From a virus: a stretch of 20,292 nt of DNA. The DNA is taken from the IMG/VR virus record IMGVR_UViG_3300010375_000057, positions 1 to 20,292 of that record; one strand, 5' to 3'. Made by a program: the position numbers and the translations under genes. The notes under the pieces are model-generated. The model was given only the letters and a program-made list of their open reading frames with translations. It ran no database searches and was not told the DNA's origin. This document shows positions 6,132 to 17,693 of this stretch, in pieces. Every line of letters starts with the position of its first letter. The first letter of the stretch is position 1.

Positions 6132-8018
6132 TTGTTTGATCCTTCCGATATCGAGATACTACGCGGGTTCCTAAATGGACTACGACCCGAACCACGTATA
6201 ACCGTCCGGGAATGGGCGGACACGTACCGGCGCTTGCCGGACACCAGCGCGCGCCCTGGTAAATTCGATACGGCCGTGACGCCCTACCTGCGGGAAGTAA
6301 TGGAAAGACTCTCGGTACATGATCCTGCGCAAAAAATCGTAGTAAAGAAGTCCTCGCAGGTAGGGTTTACGGAGTGCGGTAATAATTGGCTCGGCTATGT
6401 TATAGACGTAGCCCCTGCGGGGTTCCTATACGTCATGCCCACAGACATGATGATGAAGGACACCAGCAAAAACCGTATTCAAAAAATGATCGAGTCGACG
6501 CCGAGGCTGACCGACAAGATTATGCCAGCTAAATCTAGGGACAAAGGTAATACGCTACTCTATAAAGAGTTTACGGGTGGATTCGTAAAGATGGTCGGCG
6601 CTAATTCGCCTGTTGGCCTGTCCTCGACAGCGGTACGATTTGTCTACATGGATGAGATTGATAGGTATCCATTGGATGTTGGCGGCGAAGGTTCGGCCTT
6701 GGCCTTGGCGGAAACACGCACCATAACTTTCGGGGCGCGTAAGAAAATATTTTTGACGAGCACCCCGACGCTGAAAGGAATCAGCGCGATAGATGCCGCA
6801 TTTGAGGCAACGGGGCAGCGCTATTACCATGTGCCGTGCCCGTTCTGCCATCACTTTCAGGCGCTTGTAATAGATCAACTACGATACGAGCCGGGCAATT
6901 ACTCGCGCGTTACTTACGAGTGCATCGAGTGCAAAAAGGAAATAGATGAGCGGTTTAAAAGCCGCATGCTGAACGCGGGAAAATGGGTACCGCTGTACCC
7001 TGAGCGCGAGCAAACCGGGAAGCAATACGGCTACTTTATAAACGCGCTCTATTCGCCTAACGGCTGGTTCTCCTGGGCGGACCTTGTACGTGAGCGCGAC
7101 GAAAGCGAGGGGGACATTCCTAAGAAAGTCGCATTCACCAATACCAAGCTAGGCGAGCCGTACGAGGCAGATGCAGGCGACAAACCAGATTGGGAGGCGT
7201 TGCACGACCGCGTAGAGCATTACACGCCAAACAAACCGTTTACGGGCGTCGTATTTATTACGGCTGGCGTTGACGTGCAAGCTGACCGCCTGGAAATTGA
7301 GATTGTCGGTTGGATGGAAGGCAAGTGTACGCAGTCTATAGACTACCGGGTTATCGAGGGCGATACGTCAGGCGCGGCAGTATGGCAAGAACTGGCGAAG
7401 CTCTTTAGCGAAACGTGGACACGGGAGGGGGACAACCAGGTATTACCCTTGCGCTTAATGGGCCTCGATACAGGTTACAATACCTTAAAGGCGTACGAGT
7501 TCACGCAGGCGCACGGCATTACTAAGGTGATCCCACTAAAGGGCCGGGACAAACTCGAAACTTTTGTTTCTGCGCCGCGCGCTGTCGACATAGTTAAGGC
7601 CGGTAAGAAGATCGGCCGCGTCAAGGTCTGGAATGCTGGCGTATCGCTTATAAAATCGGAAGTATACGGACATTTGAAATTGAAGATAGACAAAGAAAGC
7701 GGGGAAGTACCTGCTGGTTACTGCCATTTTCCAGATCGGGCACCGTCGTACTTCCGTGGGCTGACTGCTGAGGAACTTGTATTATCTAAAGACGCGCGCG
7801 GATTCGACGTATTCACATGGGTAAAGAAGTACAAGCGTAACGAACCGCTCGATTGCCGCGTATATGCGCGCGCTGCCGCTTATATCGTTGGTATGGACCG
7901 TTGGACGGCGGAGCGCTGGCGGCAGGAACGATATAATGGCACTGAGCAACCGGCGCGCGCCGAGCCCGAAAAACAACAGACTGAACAAAATAAAAAACGA
8001 GCAAAATTTTGGCAATGA
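6132..8018 (+). CDS. Terminase large subunit (lambda gpA family)
   Basis: A 628-residue packaging ATPase/nuclease that translocates DNA into the prohead and cuts it. The ATPase half shows an atypical Walker A (Lys-Ser-Ser-Gln-Val-Gly-Phe-Thr-Glu, 73-81) and Walker B Val-Tyr-Met-Asp174-Glu175. A Cys4 zinc-binding unit follows (Cys236, Cys239, Cys264, Cys267), as in gpA-family members. The nuclease half has Gly-Val-Asp381 and Gly-Leu-Asp446 as probable metal ligands. Length is close to lambda gpA (641). The start is TTG 6132, just after an A-rich stretch; the first in-frame ATG (Met57) would cut conserved N-terminal sequence. gpA-type enzymes normally package by cos cleavage. The stop overlaps the next ATG (ATGA). 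Confidence 0.96.
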   Translation: MFDPSDIEILRGFLNGLRPEPRITVREWADTYRRLPDTSARPGKFDTAVTPYLREVMERLSVHDPAQKIVVKKSSQVGFTECGNNWLGYVIDVAPAGFLYVMPTDMMMKDTSKNRIQKMIESTPRLTDKIMPAKSRDKGNTLLYKEFTGGFVKMVGANSPVGLSSTAVRFVYMDEIDRYPLDVGGEGSALALAETRTITFGARKKIFLTSTPTLKGISAIDAAFEATGQRYYHVPCPFCHHFQALVIDQLRYEPGNYSRVTYECIECKKEIDERFKSRMLNAGKWVPLYPEREQTGKQYGYFINALYSPNGWFSWADLVRERDESEGDIPKKVAFTNTKLGEPYEADAGDKPDWEALHDRVEHYTPNKPFTGVVFITAGVDVQADRLEIEIVGWMEGKCTQSIDYRVIEGDTSGAAVWQELAKLFSETWTREGDNQVLPLRLMGLDTGYNTLKAYEFTQAHGITKVIPLKGRDKLETFVSAPRAVDIVKAGKKIGRVKVWNAGVSLIKSEVYGHLKLKIDKESGEVPAGYCHFPDRAPSYFRGLTAEELVLSKDARGFDVFTWVKKYKRNEPLDCRVYARAAAYIVGMDRWTAERWRQERYNGTEQPARAEPEKQQTEQNKKRAKFWQ

Positions 8019-8392
8019 CACGTACGAGAACAAAACCCCGTGTTTTATTTACACCAGGACAACGCGAAGCCGTCAAAGCTGTAAAGCAATCTGTATGCGA
8101 GCGGTACGAAATTACTGAGTCGGACTTAATCAATGACAACAGTACAGCTGTAGCGTACTTGCGCTTTTATTGTTACTGGTTGCTGCGCAACAATACGTCG
8201 TTAAGCGAGTGGGCAATAGCTGAGGCGTTCAGCAAATCGCGTACGGCTGTACAGTACGGAATTGAGAAAATTGACAGTCAAAAAGATGTGTACCGAGACG
8301 TAGCGGGCAACCTTCGCGAAATCGCGCTGGCTGCAAATAAGTACCCGAAAAAATTTGAATGGTGTATACAACAGACCAATACCAACAACTAA
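8015..8392 (+). CDS. DnaA domain IV-like DNA-binding protein
   Basis: A 125-residue protein that looks like the C-terminal DNA-binding domain of the replication initiator DnaA without its ATPase. Numbered from ATG 8015: helix 22-33 ending Arg-Tyr-Glu-Ile, then a Leu/Tyr-rich helix (46-58), then the helix-turn-helix Thr61-Ser-Leu-Ser-Glu...Ala-Phe-Ser-Lys-Ser-Arg-Thr-Ala-Val (to 79) and Gly-Ile-Glu-Lys-Ile. This parallels the DnaA layout, in which Ser-Leu-x-x-Ile-Gly-x-x-Phe precedes an Arg-Asp-His-Thr-Thr-Val signature, but Asp-His is not conserved. ATG 8015 overlaps the terL stop by 4 nt. The packaging context suggests a role in DNA recognition or late regulation. The fold call is fairly good; the function is unknown. 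Confidence 0.6.
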   Translation: MTRTRTKPRVLFTPGQREAVKAVKQSVCERYEITESDLINDNSTAVAYLRFYCYWLLRNNTSLSEWAIAEAFSKSRTAVQYGIEKIDSQKDVYRDVAGNLREIALAANKYPKKFEWCIQQTNTNN

Positions 8393-8577: not shown

Positions 8578-10072
8578 CAAAGTGTATGAGTATGTCCATC
8601 CGTCGGGCGCTGTCCGTCGGGAGGCATCCCGCGCGAAGCTGCGCGCTATGAAGGAGGTGAGGGATCGATACAACGGGGAACGTAAGTACGACGGGGCCGC
8701 GCGCGGAAGGCATTACAGCGATTGGCAAAGCCCCAATGTCTCCGTTAACCAGGAGGTACAAGCCGCGCTTTCAACGTTGCGCGAGCGCTCGCGGGACCTT
8801 GGCAGAAACAACGGGTATGCAATGAACGCCGTACGCGCTATCGTAAATAACGTCGTCGGCACGGGCATAATTCCGACGCCTGCCGGTGCGCGTAAGAATC
8901 AGACTGGCAAACTTAAAGATGTTTGGAAACGTTGGGCAGATAAAACTGGCTGCGATTATTACGGGCATTTGAATATGTACGCGCTGCAAGGTCTTGTAAT
9001 GAAAACCGTAATTGAGTCAGGCGAATGTCTTGTCAGGAAAGTAAAGGGCACTAGTAAGGATGTGGTACCGTTGCGTTTGCAAGTTTTGGAGGGCGACTAC
9101 ATTGTAAGCGGCAAGCATAACGGACAATTCCAGGAGGACGGGTCCATTACCTATTACGGTATACACTATGGTAAAGACGGCCGCCCCCTCGGATACTGGC
9201 TGTATAAGAATCACCCTAGTGAGTTCGGCGCAGCTATGGAATACGTGCCCGCTGACGAGATTTTACACATATACGATATAGAGCGAGCGGGGCAAATGCG
9301 CGGTGTGCCTCTCAGTTGCGGCGTAATGCTGAGACTCAGGGACCTGGATGACTACGAATTTACCGAGCGCATACGGAACAAAGTGGCCGCGTCTTTCAGT
9401 GTGTTTATTACTGAGGACACAGTAGATGCGGGCAACGCACAAAATAGTCCTACCCTTGAAAAAATCGAGCCGGGTGCTATCGAATATCTACCACCGGGTA
9501 AGAAAATAGAGGTTGCCGCCCCACCGGTAACGCAGGGATTCGGTGATTACGTTAAGAGCAATTTACGCGGTATCTCTGCTGGGTTTGGTACATCATACGA
9601 GACGTTGACAAATGACTACTCGAATGTAAATTTTTCGTCCGGCCGTATGGGTTGGCTCGAATTTAATAAGAACGTAGAGCGCTACCAATGGCTTATGTTA
9701 ATTCCTCGCTTTTGTGATAAGGTTTACGATTGGTTTATTGAAGCTGCGAAGCTGGCCGGGCACGTACCTGACACCGTAAGCGTCTCCGTAACCTGGACAC
9801 CGCCGCGCCGGGAAATGATCGATCCCCACAAAGAAATGGAAGCATTAAAATCACAGCTCCGCACAGGTGTAACGAGTTGGCAGAATGTTATACGTGCGTT
9901 TGGTTATACGCCGGAAGATTTACGCGCCGAGTTGGAGCAGGATAAGAAAATGTTTGACGAGCTGGGCTTAATGCCTGAGTCGGACCCGCGCTTTGATCCT
10001 AATCGGATTGAATCTACGCCGGGTGAGTCTGACCCTTCGAAACCGACAAAAAACGAGAAGCCCCCTAAATAG
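8561..10072 (+). CDS. Portal protein (lambda gpB family)
   Basis: A 503-residue protein forming the dodecameric ring at the head vertex through which DNA enters and leaves. Features of the lambda-type portal family: an N-terminal Arg-rich segment, then Arg-Asn-Asn-Gly-Tyr-Ala-Met-Asn-Ala-Val, Asn-Val-Val-Gly-Thr-Gly-Ile, a glycine-rich segment near Glu-Ser-Gly-Glu-Cys, the Tyr-Val-Pro-Ala-Asp-Glu-Ile-Leu-His segment and Gly-Val-Pro. The C-terminal tail is charged and proline-rich (Lys-Pro-Thr-Lys-Asn-Glu-Lys-Pro-Pro-Lys). Length is near gpB (533). ATG 8561 lies within the gpW end. An intrinsic terminator overlaps the stop codon. Confidence 0.95.
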   Translation: MANVIDKVYEYVHPSGAVRREASRAKLRAMKEVRDRYNGERKYDGAARGRHYSDWQSPNVSVNQEVQAALSTLRERSRDLGRNNGYAMNAVRAIVNNVVGTGIIPTPAGARKNQTGKLKDVWKRWADKTGCDYYGHLNMYALQGLVMKTVIESGECLVRKVKGTSKDVVPLRLQVLEGDYIVSGKHNGQFQEDGSITYYGIHYGKDGRPLGYWLYKNHPSEFGAAMEYVPADEILHIYDIERAGQMRGVPLSCGVMLRLRDLDDYEFTERIRNKVAASFSVFITEDTVDAGNAQNSPTLEKIEPGAIEYLPPGKKIEVAAPPVTQGFGDYVKSNLRGISAGFGTSYETLTNDYSNVNFSSGRMGWLEFNKNVERYQWLMLIPRFCDKVYDWFIEAAKLAGHVPDTVSVSVTWTPPRREMIDPHKEMEALKSQLRTGVTSWQNVIRAFGYTPEDLRAELEQDKKMFDELGLMPESDPRFDPNRIESTPGESDPSKPTKNEKPPK

Positions 10073-10146: not shown

Positions 10147-10154
10147 TAGTTTTG
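10147..10154 (+). promoter_or_regulatory. Possible Bacteroidota -7 promoter box (TAnnTTTG)
   Basis: TAGTTTTG at 10147-10154 matches the Bacteroides -7 consensus TAnnTTTG. It lies just after the terminator and about 45 bases before the ATG at 10200, where a promoter for the capsid genes would be useful. I see no good TTTG -33 box at normal spacing, so this is weak. Confidence 0.22.
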
Positions 10155-10199
10155 ATCACCCGTTTTTACGATCCAATCCGAAACACTATTGAAAAACTA

Positions 10200-12191
10200 A
10201 TGAGCGAAAAACGCACCCTTGGAAAGATGCAGGGACGAGCGACGTTGATACCGGCGTCGTTCAACCCTGACGAAAACACTATCGACGTGGTGTTTGCCAC
10301 TGAAGTCGAAGTAATGCGAAGGGACTACGACGGCCTTTACCGCGAGGTCCTTGCCTGCGAAAGCTCGGCGGTCCGCCTGGACCGGTTGAACGCAGGCGGC
10401 GCGGTTATCGATTCTCACAACGCGTATTCCGTTACAAAACAATTTGGAGTAGTTGTTCGCGCTTGGATTGACGAAGGCACAAAGGAAGCGAAGGCGACTA
10501 TTAAATTATCTCAGCGCGATGAATGGAAAGGCGTTGTAGGTGATATTCTCGCGGGCATTATTCGAAACGTGTCGGTAGGGTACAATATTTACAAATTCTT
10601 GGTTGATGATTCTAACCAGGACGTACCGCCTATCTACCGCGCAATAGACTGGGAGCCTACCGAAATTTCCTTTACACCTGTTCCCGCCGACTACAACAGC
10701 GGCAGCCGGACCGACTCAGAACAAAATCAAGTTAAAATAACAATGAAGCGTAATAGCAAGGACATAGCGGACATTTACGCCGCTAGTCGGGCCGCTGGCC
10801 TGACAGACGAATACGCCCAATCTTTGGTAGACAGTGAAGCAACCAGAGAGGCCGTGCTCGCTGAGATTGAGGGTAAAAGGGCTGCAAAACCTGTGAAACC
10901 CATTAATGAAAGTGAAATACGCGCGCAGGAGAGGACCAGGATTACAGAAATACGCAAGGCTGCCCGCATTGCTGGCGTTGAGGCTGACTTTGTGGATACG
11001 CTTATAGACAACGGCGTTGCCCTGGAAGCTGCCCGCGCGCAGATTATCGACAAGGCCGCCGAGTCTAACGCGGTTGCTCCGCGCTTGCAAACTAGTGTTA
11101 CAGTAAGCGCAGACGAGAAGGATAAAAAGACGCGTGGCATGGAGTCAAGCATTTTGCAGCGCGCTGGTATAGTGAGCGCTGAGGTTGCCGGTGATCCTGG
11201 ACAATTCAGGGGCATGACCTTAATGGACCTCGCAAAGGAAGCGCTAACCGAGTCAGGTGTAAACTGGCGCGGTATGTCTCAGCGTCAAATTGCTACCCGC
11301 GCTTTGCAAATGTCTCGTGACGGCGGCGGCGGTCTTGCTTCCGGGGACTTTTCCTATGTGCTGCAAAACGTTCTTAACAAGACGCTGCGCACCATGTACG
11401 ACTTGCAGGAAAGAACCTTTACGCCCTGGACCCGGAAAAGCACTGCAAGCGACTTCAAAAATATACTGCGCACCCAGCTTAACGACTTGAAGTTGTCGAA
11501 AGTTAGTGAGGGCGGCGAGTATAGCTTTGCGCAGGCAGGGGATACTGGCGAGGTTTACAAGGTTTCGAAATACGGTAAGATCGTAAATATAGATTGGGAG
11601 GCAATCGTCAACGATGACCTGAGCGCGTTTTCTCGTTATCCTCAATTCCTTGCCGGGGCTGTTGCTCAGTTACAAAGCGACCTCATTTACGCGATCATTA
11701 CCGGCCCCCACGTAATGGGTGACGGAAACCAACTTTTCGACGCTGCGAACCACAATAACTATACCTCTGTCGGTACTGACATTTCAGTTACGAGTCTGGG
11801 TATCGGCCGTAAGCAAATGCGTCAACAAAAGACAGCTGCCGGAAATGTGTTGAACATCACACCTAAGTTTTTGGTTTGTGGCCCTAATAAAGAGCAAGTC
11901 GCATTACAGTACACTTCTCAAAACTACGTAGCAACTAAGAACAGTGATATTAACGTTTGGGTCGGCATGATGCAACCGATAATCGACGCGCGTATACCTG
12001 ATAACTCTTGGTTCCTTGTCGCAAACCCTGGCGTTATCGATACTATCGAATATGCGACCCTCGACGGTCAGGATATCTACACAGAAAGCCGCTACGGGTT
12101 CGACGTGGACGCCTTGCAATGGAAAGTACGTACCGTATTCGGCGCTAAGGCAATCGAGTGGCGCAGTATCTACAAAAACGCAGGGGCTTAA
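10200..12191 (+). CDS. Prohead protease/major capsid protein fusion
   Basis: A 663-residue fusion. Residues about 10-168 look like an HK97-type (S78/U35) prohead protease: His73 in Asp-Ser-His-Asn, Ser125 in Arg-Asn-Val-Ser-Val-Gly-Tyr, and the ending Glu-Ile-Ser-Phe-Thr-Pro-Val-Pro-Ala. Residues about 185-300 are a helical, charged linker likely acting as scaffold, with an internal repeat: 189-223 and 248-282 align without gaps. From about 315 on is the major capsid protein, expected to be HK97 fold and resembling the Mu gpT-like class. No separate capsid, protease or scaffold gene is present, consistent with one fused gene. ATG 10200 is chosen; an in-frame TTG at 10152 would add 16 residues and overlap the possible promoter box. 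Such fusions are known in other phages. Confidence 0.9.
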   Translation: MSEKRTLGKMQGRATLIPASFNPDENTIDVVFATEVEVMRRDYDGLYREVLACESSAVRLDRLNAGGAVIDSHNAYSVTKQFGVVVRAWIDEGTKEAKATIKLSQRDEWKGVVGDILAGIIRNVSVGYNIYKFLVDDSNQDVPPIYRAIDWEPTEISFTPVPADYNSGSRTDSEQNQVKITMKRNSKDIADIYAASRAAGLTDEYAQSLVDSEATREAVLAEIEGKRAAKPVKPINESEIRAQERTRITEIRKAARIAGVEADFVDTLIDNGVALEAARAQIIDKAAESNAVAPRLQTSVTVSADEKDKKTRGMESSILQRAGIVSAEVAGDPGQFRGMTLMDLAKEALTESGVNWRGMSQRQIATRALQMSRDGGGGLASGDFSYVLQNVLNKTLRTMYDLQERTFTPWTRKSTASDFKNILRTQLNDLKLSKVSEGGEYSFAQAGDTGEVYKVSKYGKIVNIDWEAIVNDDLSAFSRYPQFLAGAVAQLQSDLIYAIITGPHVMGDGNQLFDAANHNNYTSVGTDISVTSLGIGRKQMRQQKTAAGNVLNITPKFLVCGPNKEQVALQYTSQNYVATKNSDINVWVGMMQPIIDARIPDNSWFLVANPGVIDTIEYATLDGQDIYTESRYGFDVDALQWKVRTVFGAKAIEWRSIYKNAGA

Positions 12192-14902: not shown

Positions 14903-15424
14903 ATGGGAATAGTTGTAAACAGGCTTACAAACGCAAATATATATATAGAAGGCGCGTCCTACCTCGGCAGAGCTGAGGAAATAACGCTACCCGCGATCAA
15001 GTCCAAATTCTCCGATCACAAGGGCCTGGGTATGATAATGGACGTAGAGTTTCCTGCTGGGTTCGAAAAGATGCAGGGTAAAATTAAATGGTCCTCGCTC
15101 TATCCCGATATCGTTGACGCAGTTGGTAGCCCGTATAATGCCGTGCAAATGCAGATACGCGCCAATATGGACGTATACGATGCGAGCGGCGAGCGCAATA
15201 GCGTGTCTGTCGTATGTTTCCTTACCGTTCGTTTCAAAGACTCACTTTCGGCGCTTACGCTGAAAATGAACGAGCCGAGCGAACAGGAAAGCGAATACAG
15301 CGCGACGTACTACCGCCTGGAAATTGACGGGCAACCGCTGATTGAGATAGACGCTATCTCTCAGCTCTTTTTCGTGAGCGACCGGGACGAGCTGGCAGCT
15401 TACCGGGCTAATCTGGGCATCTAA
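14903..15424 (+). CDS. Major tail tube protein (P2 FII-like)
   Basis: A 173-residue protein forming the inner tube of the contractile tail; P2 FII is 172. Visible family features: Asn-Arg-Leu-Thr-Asn-Ala-Asn-Ile-Tyr near the N-terminus, the Glu-Ile-Thr-Leu-Pro-Ala-Ile segment, Gly-Leu-Gly-Met-Ile-Met-Asp-Val-Glu-Phe-Pro-Ala-Gly-Phe-Glu-Lys-Met, and a C-terminal Arg-Leu-Glu-Ile-Asp-Gly-Gln-Pro-Leu-Ile-Glu-Ile-Asp strand pair. It lies between sheath and chaperone as in P2. ATG 14903 follows an A-rich leader without Shine-Dalgarno. Confidence 0.92.
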   Translation: MGIVVNRLTNANIYIEGASYLGRAEEITLPAIKSKFSDHKGLGMIMDVEFPAGFEKMQGKIKWSSLYPDIVDAVGSPYNAVQMQIRANMDVYDASGERNSVSVVCFLTVRFKDSLSALTLKMNEPSEQESEYSATYYRLEIDGQPLIEIDAISQLFFVSDRDELAAYRANLGI

Positions 15425-15437
15425 AAAGACGTAAAAC

Positions 15438-15689
15438 ATGAATATCAAAACTGGCAAAGAGTTCACCCTTTCGGGAGGACAGAAAGTTGTAATTCGTGAG
15501 GCGAAAGGTAAGGACGCCGAGGCCGCTATGCGAGTGGCTGGCCAAGGGCAACAGGAAAAATATCTTTCGGCACTTATGGCGAGAACGGTAATCGTTGACG
15601 GTAAAGCTATCGTACCCGAAGCTCTTGCAGAGTTGCCCCTAAAGGACTACTTGAAAATACAAGGTGAATTTGCTGATCTAAATTTTTAG
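15438..15689 (+). CDS. Tail assembly chaperone, short form (P2 gpE/gp41 type)
   Basis: An 83-residue protein expected to bind the tape measure protein and help tail assembly without staying in the virion. It begins with Lys-Glu-Phe-Thr-Leu-Ser-Gly-Gly-Gln-Lys-Val-Val-Ile-Arg-Glu, has Thr-Val-Ile-Val-Asp-Gly-Lys and ends Phe-Ala-Asp-Leu-Asn-Phe, the pattern of the E/41/14 family. It sits between tube and tape measure genes as expected. Its last two sense codons AAT TTT are part of a slippery heptamer, so part of the ribosomes should shift to the -1 frame and make the long form. Confidence 0.88.
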   Translation: MNIKTGKEFTLSGGQKVVIREAKGKDAEAAMRVAGQGQQEKYLSALMARTVIVDGKAIVPEALAELPLKDYLKIQGEFADLNF

Positions 15690-15847
15690 TCAGTGTGCGA
15701 GATATGCTATTTCTCGCACACTTTTCACATACCCCGTATAGCGTGGTTCTGTCTTGGTCGACGCGCGATATCTCCTATCGCGTAGATCAATCCGTTTCAC
15801 TTTACAACCAGATGAACAAACCGCCCGAGGATGGACAAGGAAATTAA
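15438..15847 (+). CDS. Tail assembly chaperone, -1 frameshift long form (gpE+E' type)
   Basis: Predicted product of a -1 slip at AAATTTT (15680-15686): zero-frame residues 1-83 followed by 53 residues read from 15686 in the -1 frame up to TAA 15845-15847, 136 in total. The extension ends Asp-Gln-Ser-Val-Ser-Leu-Tyr-Asn-Gln-Met-Asn-Lys-Pro-Pro-Glu-Asp-Gly. The -1 frame is open from the slip site through the otherwise empty 141-base gap and ends 17 bases inside the tape measure gene. Lambda gpG/gpGT and P2 E/E+E' use the same design, where the long form links chaperone to tape measure. The sequence signal is strong; actual shifting and its rate are inferred. Confidence 0.85.
15680..15722 (+). 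promoter_or_regulatory. -1 ribosomal frameshift signal: slippery site plus stem-loop
   Basis: The heptamer A AAT TTT (15680-15686) fits X XXY YYZ in the zero frame. After a 5-base spacer that includes the TAG stop comes a perfect 11-bp stem, left arm 15692-15702 and right arm 15712-15722, with a 9-base loop. This is the standard layout of a stimulated -1 frameshift. The four Ts after the stem could suggest a terminator, but the open -1 frame argues for recoding. Confidence 0.85.
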
Positions 15848-17693
15848 AATAGGACTCATTCTTTCCGCTTACGACAAGGTTTCCGACGTGCTGGACAAAG
15901 TGTTTGGCAAGTCAAAGAAAAACTTTGCCGAAATGAAATCAGCCGCCGTTGACCTGGGCAAGGGCATGGCTATAATGGGTATGGGCGCGGCTGGCTTAAA
16001 AATGCTTGATGGTCAAATAGAGGCATTTGGTAAAATGGAGGAAGCCGGTAACGACCTGAAAGGCGCGTTAATGGGACCGGGCGGTGTATTAGACGAGTCG
16101 ATCTATAAGAAAATAGCCACGCTATCTATGGACTTGTCGGACAAGTACAAGGGGAGCGCTACCGACTACCTCGATATGATCCGTGTGTTAAAGGAAAACA
16201 GGATCAATGAGGCCGACGTGCTGGGCGGTATAGGCGACGCGACCGCGAAGCTATCGGACCTGTTCGACATGGCACCCGCGCATATTGCCGAGTTTTCGGC
16301 GCATATGCGTAACGATATGGGTGTAGCGGTCGGCGACATGGAAAAGGTAATGGACCTTGTAGCGCGTGTACATGGTAGCGGCGTAGGCAAAACCGGCAGC
16401 GAGGCTGTGACGGAAATGAATGAATTTTTTGGCAAGGCTTCGCTCGGGGCGGCGAACCTGGGCGTCCAGGGCCTCGAAGCGTCTAAGCAAATGGGCGCAC
16501 TCGGTGCGCTCTTCATGTCACGCGGTTTGTCCGGCGCGACCGTGGGTACTAACTTTCGGCGCATATTCGATGGGTTGCGCGACTCTGAAAAGTTAGGCAA
16601 GGCGAACGCGGTAGCGGCACAATTCGGTAAACACCTTAGCTTATTCGATAGGAAAGGTACGTTCCTCGGTATGGATAATTTTGTCCAGGAGTTAGGAAAA
16701 CTCGGCGACCTCAGTAGCTCACAGATTGCAGCTGTTCTAAAGGCGTTCGGTGGAAAGCAAGGTCTTAGCACTGATTTTATTGAATACCTGTCTAAAAATG
16801 GTCTAACGGGCTACCAAGAGTTTTTAGACAAGATGAACAGCCAAGCGGAGTTATCCGATAAGCTCGCGGTAAAGATGAAGGGCCTCAACTACCAAAAGGA
16901 GGTTTTTAGGACATCTACCGAGAATTTGAAAGCTACGCTAGGCGAAGCGCTCGCGCCTACGCTTACGGCCATCTACGATGTATTGAATAAAATTGTAGGC
17001 AAGCTCCGGGCCTTTGCTGAGGCGCACCCGAAACTAACAAAAATGGCAATGGCCTTCATTGCTATTGCGTCCGGCGCGCTTATGCTTTGGGGAGCTGTCA
17101 AAGTAATGACCGCGCTTACTACGGTACTACGCATTTTTGGAGTTACGCTTTACGCTACGCCTGTGCTCGGATGGATAGCCGCCATAGTGACGGCGCTCAC
17201 CTTGCTATACACATATTGGGATGAGATCACCGGATTTTTTAAGAATACAGAATTTCAATGGGGCGCGGTGTTTCGTAACATAGCCCGCTTTATATTGAAA
17301 TTCGCTCTATTCCCGCTAACAACCCTTTTAAAGGCAGTCGGATGGATAGGGAAGGCGCTACACTTGTCAGGGCTGCAAAAGGCCGGGGAGTGGGCTTCTA
17401 ATCTTGCGGATAATCTTACAGGCGGCAGCTTTGAGGACATGACCAAAGCGAAGCCAGGGAGTGCGGCCGCGGCCCGCCAAGGTCTATATGTGCCGCCAAA
17501 GAGTAAAGGAGCTGACGCGGTTTCCGGCCTCGTTAGTAATAACGACAAGTCTACTGTAACCAATAACGTGACCGTAAACCTTTCCGGCGGGGCAACAGCG
17601 GCGGACGGTAAGGCAGTGAGCGAAAGCATACAAAGCACATTCGACAAGCTAATGAAGGATCACGAACAACGTAAGGCAAGGAGGGCATTTTGA
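15831..17693 (+). CDS. Tail tape measure protein
   Basis: A 620-residue protein that sets tail length and is ejected with or before the DNA. The N-terminal 400 residues are helical with Gly/Ala/Met-rich segments (Gly-Met-Gly-Ala-Ala-Gly near 51) and the TP901-type core, including Phe-Met-Ser-Arg-Gly-Leu-Ser-Gly-Ala and Val-Leu-Lys-Ala-Phe-Gly-Gly. Two or three membrane-like segments lie at about 405-465, followed by an amphipathic region and a C-terminal Asn/Thr/Val-rich strand plus charged helix. It is fairly short; at roughly 1.5 angstrom per residue it predicts a tail near 90-100 nm, which is inference. Its ATG lies inside the -1 frame end of the chaperone, and its stop overlaps the next start. 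Confidence 0.92.
   Translation: MDKEIKIGLILSAYDKVSDVLDKVFGKSKKNFAEMKSAAVDLGKGMAIMGMGAAGLKMLDGQIEAFGKMEEAGNDLKGALMGPGGVLDESIYKKIATLSMDLSDKYKGSATDYLDMIRVLKENRINEADVLGGIGDATAKLSDLFDMAPAHIAEFSAHMRNDMGVAVGDMEKVMDLVARVHGSGVGKTGSEAVTEMNEFFGKASLGAANLGVQGLEASKQMGALGALFMSRGLSGATVGTNFRRIFDGLRDSEKLGKANAVAAQFGKHLSLFDRKGTFLGMDNFVQELGKLGDLSSSQIAAVLKAFGGKQGLSTDFIEYLSKNGLTGYQEFLDKMNSQAELSDKLAVKMKGLNYQKEVFRTSTENLKATLGEALAPTLTAIYDVLNKIVGKLRAFAEAHPKLTKMAMAFIAIASGALMLWGAVKVMTALTTVLRIFGVTLYATPVLGWIAAIVTALTLLYTYWDEITGFFKNTEFQWGAVFRNIARFILKFALFPLTTLLKAVGWIGKALHLSGLQKAGEWASNLADNLTGGSFEDMTKAKPGSAAAARQGLYVPPKSKGADAVSGLVSNNDKSTVTNNVTVNLSGGATAADGKAVSESIQSTFDKLMKDHEQRKARRAF

Follow-up and report, generated by a model that had tools for sequence, protein, structure and literature searches.

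The tail module and the site of the predicted frameshift

The window, which is the whole stretch of DNA analyzed here, is an IMG/VR virus record of 20,292 bp with genes for terminase, portal, capsid, contractile sheath, tube, chaperone, tape measure, and baseplate. The features of the region from the tube gene to the tape measure gene are listed in Table 1. No Rfam match was found in the window.

Table 1. Features of the tail tube, chaperone, and tape measure region of the window
Feature	Position	Strand	Evidence
Tail tube protein, P2 FII-like, just 5′ of the chaperone gene	14903–15424	+	Pfam Phage_tube, 6e-44
Tail assembly chaperone, short form, 83 aa, P2 gpE/Mu gp41-like	15438–15689	+	PF10109, phrog_21320, place between tube and tape measure
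Slippery heptamer A_AAT_TTT, −1 register, last two sense codons	15680–15686	+	In register in 16 non-redundant loci
Zero-frame stop codon TAG, directly 3′ of the heptamer	15687–15689	+	TAA/TAG at the same place in 14 of 16 loci
Spacer, 5 nt (5 to 7 nt in most relatives)	15687–15691	+	Sequence comparison
Putative stimulatory stem-loop; arms 15692–15702 and 15712–15722, loop 15703–15711	15692–15722	+	Fold, recoding test, covariation
−1 extension; 53 codons 15686–15844, stop codon 15845–15847	15686–15847	+	Codon-position test, homology to P2 E′-type extensions
Tail tape measure protein; shares 17 nt with the extension	15831–17693	+	Pfam PhageMin_Tail, 2e-16; phrog_28, 6e-54

The 3′ end of the chaperone open reading frame reads GAT CTA AAT TTT TAG. 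As stated in the initial annotation, AAATTTT occupies the final two sense codons in the right register, being read as A AAT TTT, a proper X_XXY_YYZ site. The same annotation described the heptamer as overlapping the stop codon, which needs to be corrected, as it abuts the TAG instead. Its coordinates for the following elements agreed with the sequence: 5 nt after the heptamer starts a stem of 11 base pairs without a mismatch, which closes a loop of 9 nt, and the −1 frame remains open for 53 codons until its stop codon ends 17 nt inside the tape measure gene. The long form of the chaperone is predicted to comprise 83 + 53 = 136 amino acids.

Twelve tail and head open reading frames of the window contain 18 in-register XXXYYYZ sites in 4040 codon positions, so that the heptamer alone is weak evidence. 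Two of these 18 sites are AAATTTT, the second being inside the portal gene (9628 to 9634), and there is no reason to think that this second site is used. Given the conservation in relatives described below, sequence comparison places the combination of heptamer and hairpin far above chance.

Conservation of the heptamer in related loci

The chaperone, tube, and tape measure proteins of the window, when used as sole queries, retrieved no more than two close relatives from IMG/VR. Relatives were found via a tube-profile search and a search with the extension peptide, the latter without a requirement for the heptamer. After removal of duplicates and with the window counted in, 16 non-redundant loci carried an in-register AAATTTT at the end of the chaperone gene. 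The proposal that heptamer, spacer, and stem should be conserved in relatives was borne out, with the heptamer in these 16 loci, a hairpin at 5 to 7 nt in most of them, and compensatory changes in the stems.

The zero-frame stop codon adjoins the heptamer in all but two loci, L003 and L125, which carry TCG at this position. The base 5′ of AAT TTT is an A in 16 of 16 loci, although the codon that ends with this base stands for six different residues (L, I, A, E, V, or Q). When the probability of this A was taken from the codon usage of each locus, the product of the sixteen probabilities was 10^-20, a number that is an index and not a P value, because the sequences are related and not independent.

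Seven sister loci (L112, L114, L121, L111, L113, L118, and L120) possess the same −1 extension with AAATTTT replaced by TTC GGG GGG (C_GGG_GGG), by T_TTT_TTT, or by CTT TTT shortly before the stop codon. Since the extension is kept without AAATTTT, the slip site is replaceable. A significant hairpin (p < 0.02) was present in three of the seven, L111, L113, and L118. In about 50 tube relatives with a higher use of Shine-Dalgarno sequences, for instance L030, L044, and L065, XXXYYYZ was not found at the end of the chaperone gene, and the region downstream of a distant tube match in Acidovorax genomes was likewise without XXXYYYZ.

Selection on the −1 extension as a protein

The closest relatives of the window are L003, with a 79% identical tape measure protein, and L004, with 80% identity in the tube and 74% in the tape measure protein. 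Both keep AAATTTT, the open −1 frame, and the hairpin. The zero frame past the chaperone stop codon and the remaining frame contain stop codons in the window, L003, and L004. Differences at codon positions 1, 2, and 3 of the −1 frame numbered 10, 2, and 25; 15, 6, and 31; and 13, 6, and 31 in the three pairs among these phages. In the first two pairs, synonymous versus nonsynonymous codon differences were 15/13 and 23/14 in the −1 frame but 3/26 and 3/33 in the zero frame. Changes thus accumulated at third positions and were mostly synonymous in the −1 frame only, which indicates selection on the extension at the protein level. A −1 frame broken in relatives had been named as an observation that would speak against the frameshift; the frame was found intact and under this selection.

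Selection on the hairpin as RNA

A 61-nt stretch containing the hairpin of the window folded with −18.3 kcal/mol, a z of −6.2 compared to dinucleotide shuffles (0 of 200), and the stem was among the most stable 0.7% of the 42-nt stretches in the window. In a recoding test, the −1-frame peptide was held constant and its codons were redrawn from the phage's own usage; only 0.02% of 5000 such trials folded as stably. Across the 16 loci, the z of synonymous recoding ranged from −4.5 to +0.7, and the hairpin reached p ≤ 0.025 individually in 14 of them. The pooled z of −11.9 overstates independence, the loci being related, but their stems differ in sequence and register. As a control, 15 stretches of the tape measure gene gave a mean z of 0.1.

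The pairing register, expressed as the sum of paired offsets, was 52 in most loci, 53 in L115 and L116, 54 in the window and L003, and 47 in L122 and L127. Among seven loci of register 52, 95.2% of the cells were paired, compared to 39 to 57% when the register was slid; these loci showed 10 double changes, and their covariation score was reached by 0 of 500 shuffles. As judged from recoding and covariation, the hairpin is selected as RNA while its pairing register turns over between lineages. L125 kept the heptamer with no strong stem, and the simple helix of L023 was not significant in 42 nt, so that the hairpin is usual but not strictly required. A possible pseudoknot between the loop sequence UGCUAU and a downstream AUAGCG, spotted by eye in the window, was dropped because no counterpart was seen by eye in L003.

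Relationship to known systems

The chaperone of the window matched PF10109 (Phage_TAC_7) with 4.5e-5 and 23.8 bits, just under the curated cut-off of 25, and phrog_21320 with 8e-9. These families were matched by 6 of 10 (best 2e-5) and 8 of 10 members of the lineage, respectively. When the extension was compared with chaperone long forms, as had been suggested, it turned out to be homologous to the P2 E′-type extensions: a profile of 13 sequences aligned with the extensions of P2, AcaML1, Pasteurella phage, and WOcauB1 (Wolbachia-type), among others, with an hhalign probability of 95.5 and an E value of 1.4e-8. A profile from three sequences only was too thin and gave nothing. No direct match of the extension to PF06528 (Phage_P2_GpE) was found, and phrog_10636 matched the extensions of both P2 and L125.

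The chaperone family together with the homology of the extension indicates that the phage carries a system of the P2 E/E+E′ type. In common with gpE/E+E′ of the P2 FETUD operon (PF10109 and PF06528) are the slot between the FII tube and the tape measure gene, the chaperone family, the homologous −1 extension, the shift near the chaperone stop codon, and the reach of the extension to the start of the tape measure gene. The slip sites differ, being T_TTT_TTG in P2, AcaML1, and WOcauB1, G_GGA_AAG in the Pasteurella phage, and A_AAU_UUU in the lineage of the window, where this site usually abuts the stop codon and is accompanied by a strong hairpin. In the recoding test, the hairpin of P2, AcaML1, WOcauB1, and the Pasteurella phage was weaker or absent, that of P2 (L016) having a non-significant z of −1.2.

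The initial annotation had traced the principle to lambda G/GT and P2 E/E+E′, and gene order and the homologous halves place the window with the same kind of system. The slip site of lambda is G_GGA_AAG, and GGGAAAG occurs in some tube relatives. Lambda G/GT shares the logic of a minor −1 fusion of the tail chaperone (PMC5009743), but lambda is a siphophage and the protein sequences are different. The lambda fusion joins the chaperone that binds the tape measure protein to a tube-binding domain (PMC5009743). The same heptamer, AAAUUUU, also comes up in papers on frameshifting in RNA viruses. Genes and hosts are unrelated there, and the shared sequence represents convergence on a generic XXXYYYZ motif.

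Proposed mechanism and alternative explanations

The P2 gpE-like tail assembly chaperone gene very probably uses a programmed −1 ribosomal frameshift, as deduced from sequence comparison. The majority of ribosomes would read A AAU UUU and terminate at UAG, which yields the 83-amino-acid short form. While tRNA-Asn and tRNA-Phe occupy AAU UUU, the ribosome would be held by the hairpin that starts 5 nt beyond the heptamer, and a minority of ribosomes would undergo a tandem −1 slip to AAA UUU and translate 53 more codons into the 136-amino-acid fusion. Slow termination at the abutting stop codon may perhaps be an added stimulus to slippage. By analogy with lambda gpG/gpGT and P2 E/E+E′, the short form is expected to coat the tape measure protein, and the extra domain of the long form to recruit the tube protein. 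The efficiency of slippage would thereby set the ratio of short to long chaperone, which would control tail assembly.

A variant of this explanation is a stop-assisted slip of a single tRNA-Phe on U_UUU with the stop codon in the A site, the AAA being incidental. It would lead to the same product, and both modes could coexist. The heptamer abutting the stop codon in 14 of 16 loci agrees with such a slip, as do L113, L118, and L120, where nothing but CTT TTT precedes a nearby stop codon. The two loci with TCG have no adjacent stop codon, however, and the AAA is invariant despite the varying preceding residue, as predicted by tandem slippage, so that the stop-assisted slip is unlikely as the sole mode. 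Alternatively, translation may re-initiate past the chaperone stop codon, at ATG 15704 or GTG 15695, and produce the extension as a small protein of its own without a frameshift. The window, L003, and L004 indeed have an in-frame ATG, 14 nt past the TAG in the window. The codons 5′ of this ATG (V-S-V-R-D), however, are conserved as protein in the three close phages, with synonymous changes; the ATG of the window is in a loop closed by a strong stem; and L024 and L023 do not possess it. Re-initiation, moreover, has no need of the heptamer, yet 16 loci retain it in register with all seven bases unchanged; re-initiation is therefore very improbable.

Two explanations at the level of transcription are still less probable and deserve next to no weight. 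The hairpin may be an intrinsic terminator or attenuator between the chaperone and tape measure genes, which would fit the TTTT after the GC-rich stem in the window, but the U-run is not conserved because L003 has TGTC and L004 ATTTC after the stem. The stem is also inside a selected coding frame, and its spacing from the heptamer is fixed. A terminator scan made no call on this strand, which is weak evidence because the scan takes loops of 3 to 8 only. Slippage of the RNA polymerase instead of the ribosome could generate the fusion on the run AAATTTTT, which is composed of A/T only. This run holds just 5 T and 3 A, whereas programmed transcriptional slippage has been linked to runs of >7 A or >8 T (PMC3711429), and polymerase slippage requires no hairpin at 5 to 7 nt, yet the hairpin is selected.

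Host and novelty of the cassette

Shine-Dalgarno-like sites precede 8% of the open reading frames of the lineage, compared to 53% in other tube relatives, and 3 of 13 open reading frames of the window itself. The integrases of two isolate provirus contigs had their best match, a weak one with 23 to 25% identity, in Persicobacter. Because of this scarcity of Shine-Dalgarno sequences and the integrase matches, the host is likely a member of the Bacteroidota; the initial guess of this phylum thus received indirect support, which falls short of proof.

The frameshift cassette had also been suggested to be undescribed. Leaving aside the original Xu 2004 survey, no report of AAATTTT/AAAUUUU in a phage tail chaperone was found in the literature searched, and neither the INPHARED phages nor the PLSDB plasmids contained a match to the long form. 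Within the literature and phage records searched, the lineage-wide cassette of A_AAU_UUU and hairpin, usually abutting the stop codon, appears to be new, while the mechanism is of a well-known kind, and the principle of tail building is unchanged by the finding. It is an evenly balanced question whether this Shine-Dalgarno-poor, probably Bacteroidota-infecting, contractile-tail lineage has evolved its own cassette, with A_AAU_UUU usually right before UAA/UAG and a strongly selected hairpin of shifting register at 5 to 7 nt, in which stop codon and hairpin may replace a Shine-Dalgarno stimulator that its hosts cannot use.

Annotation by single open reading frames misses the long form of the chaperone. 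The 16 loci are a ready set for the detection and testing of frameshift signals in phages whose hosts make little use of Shine-Dalgarno sequences, and they are a clean natural case of an RNA hairpin under selection, the pairing register of which turns over inside a conserved peptide.

Elsewhere in the window, a 127-amino-acid open reading frame (8009 to 8392) contains a DnaA C-terminal DNA-binding domain (PF08299, 4e-9) and is located between the terminase and portal genes, an odd site for a replication-initiator domain. The capsid open reading frame (10152 to 12191) encodes 679 amino acids with the capsid domain confined to residues 381 to 676; the long part N-terminal to this domain is possibly a head protease fused to the capsid protein.
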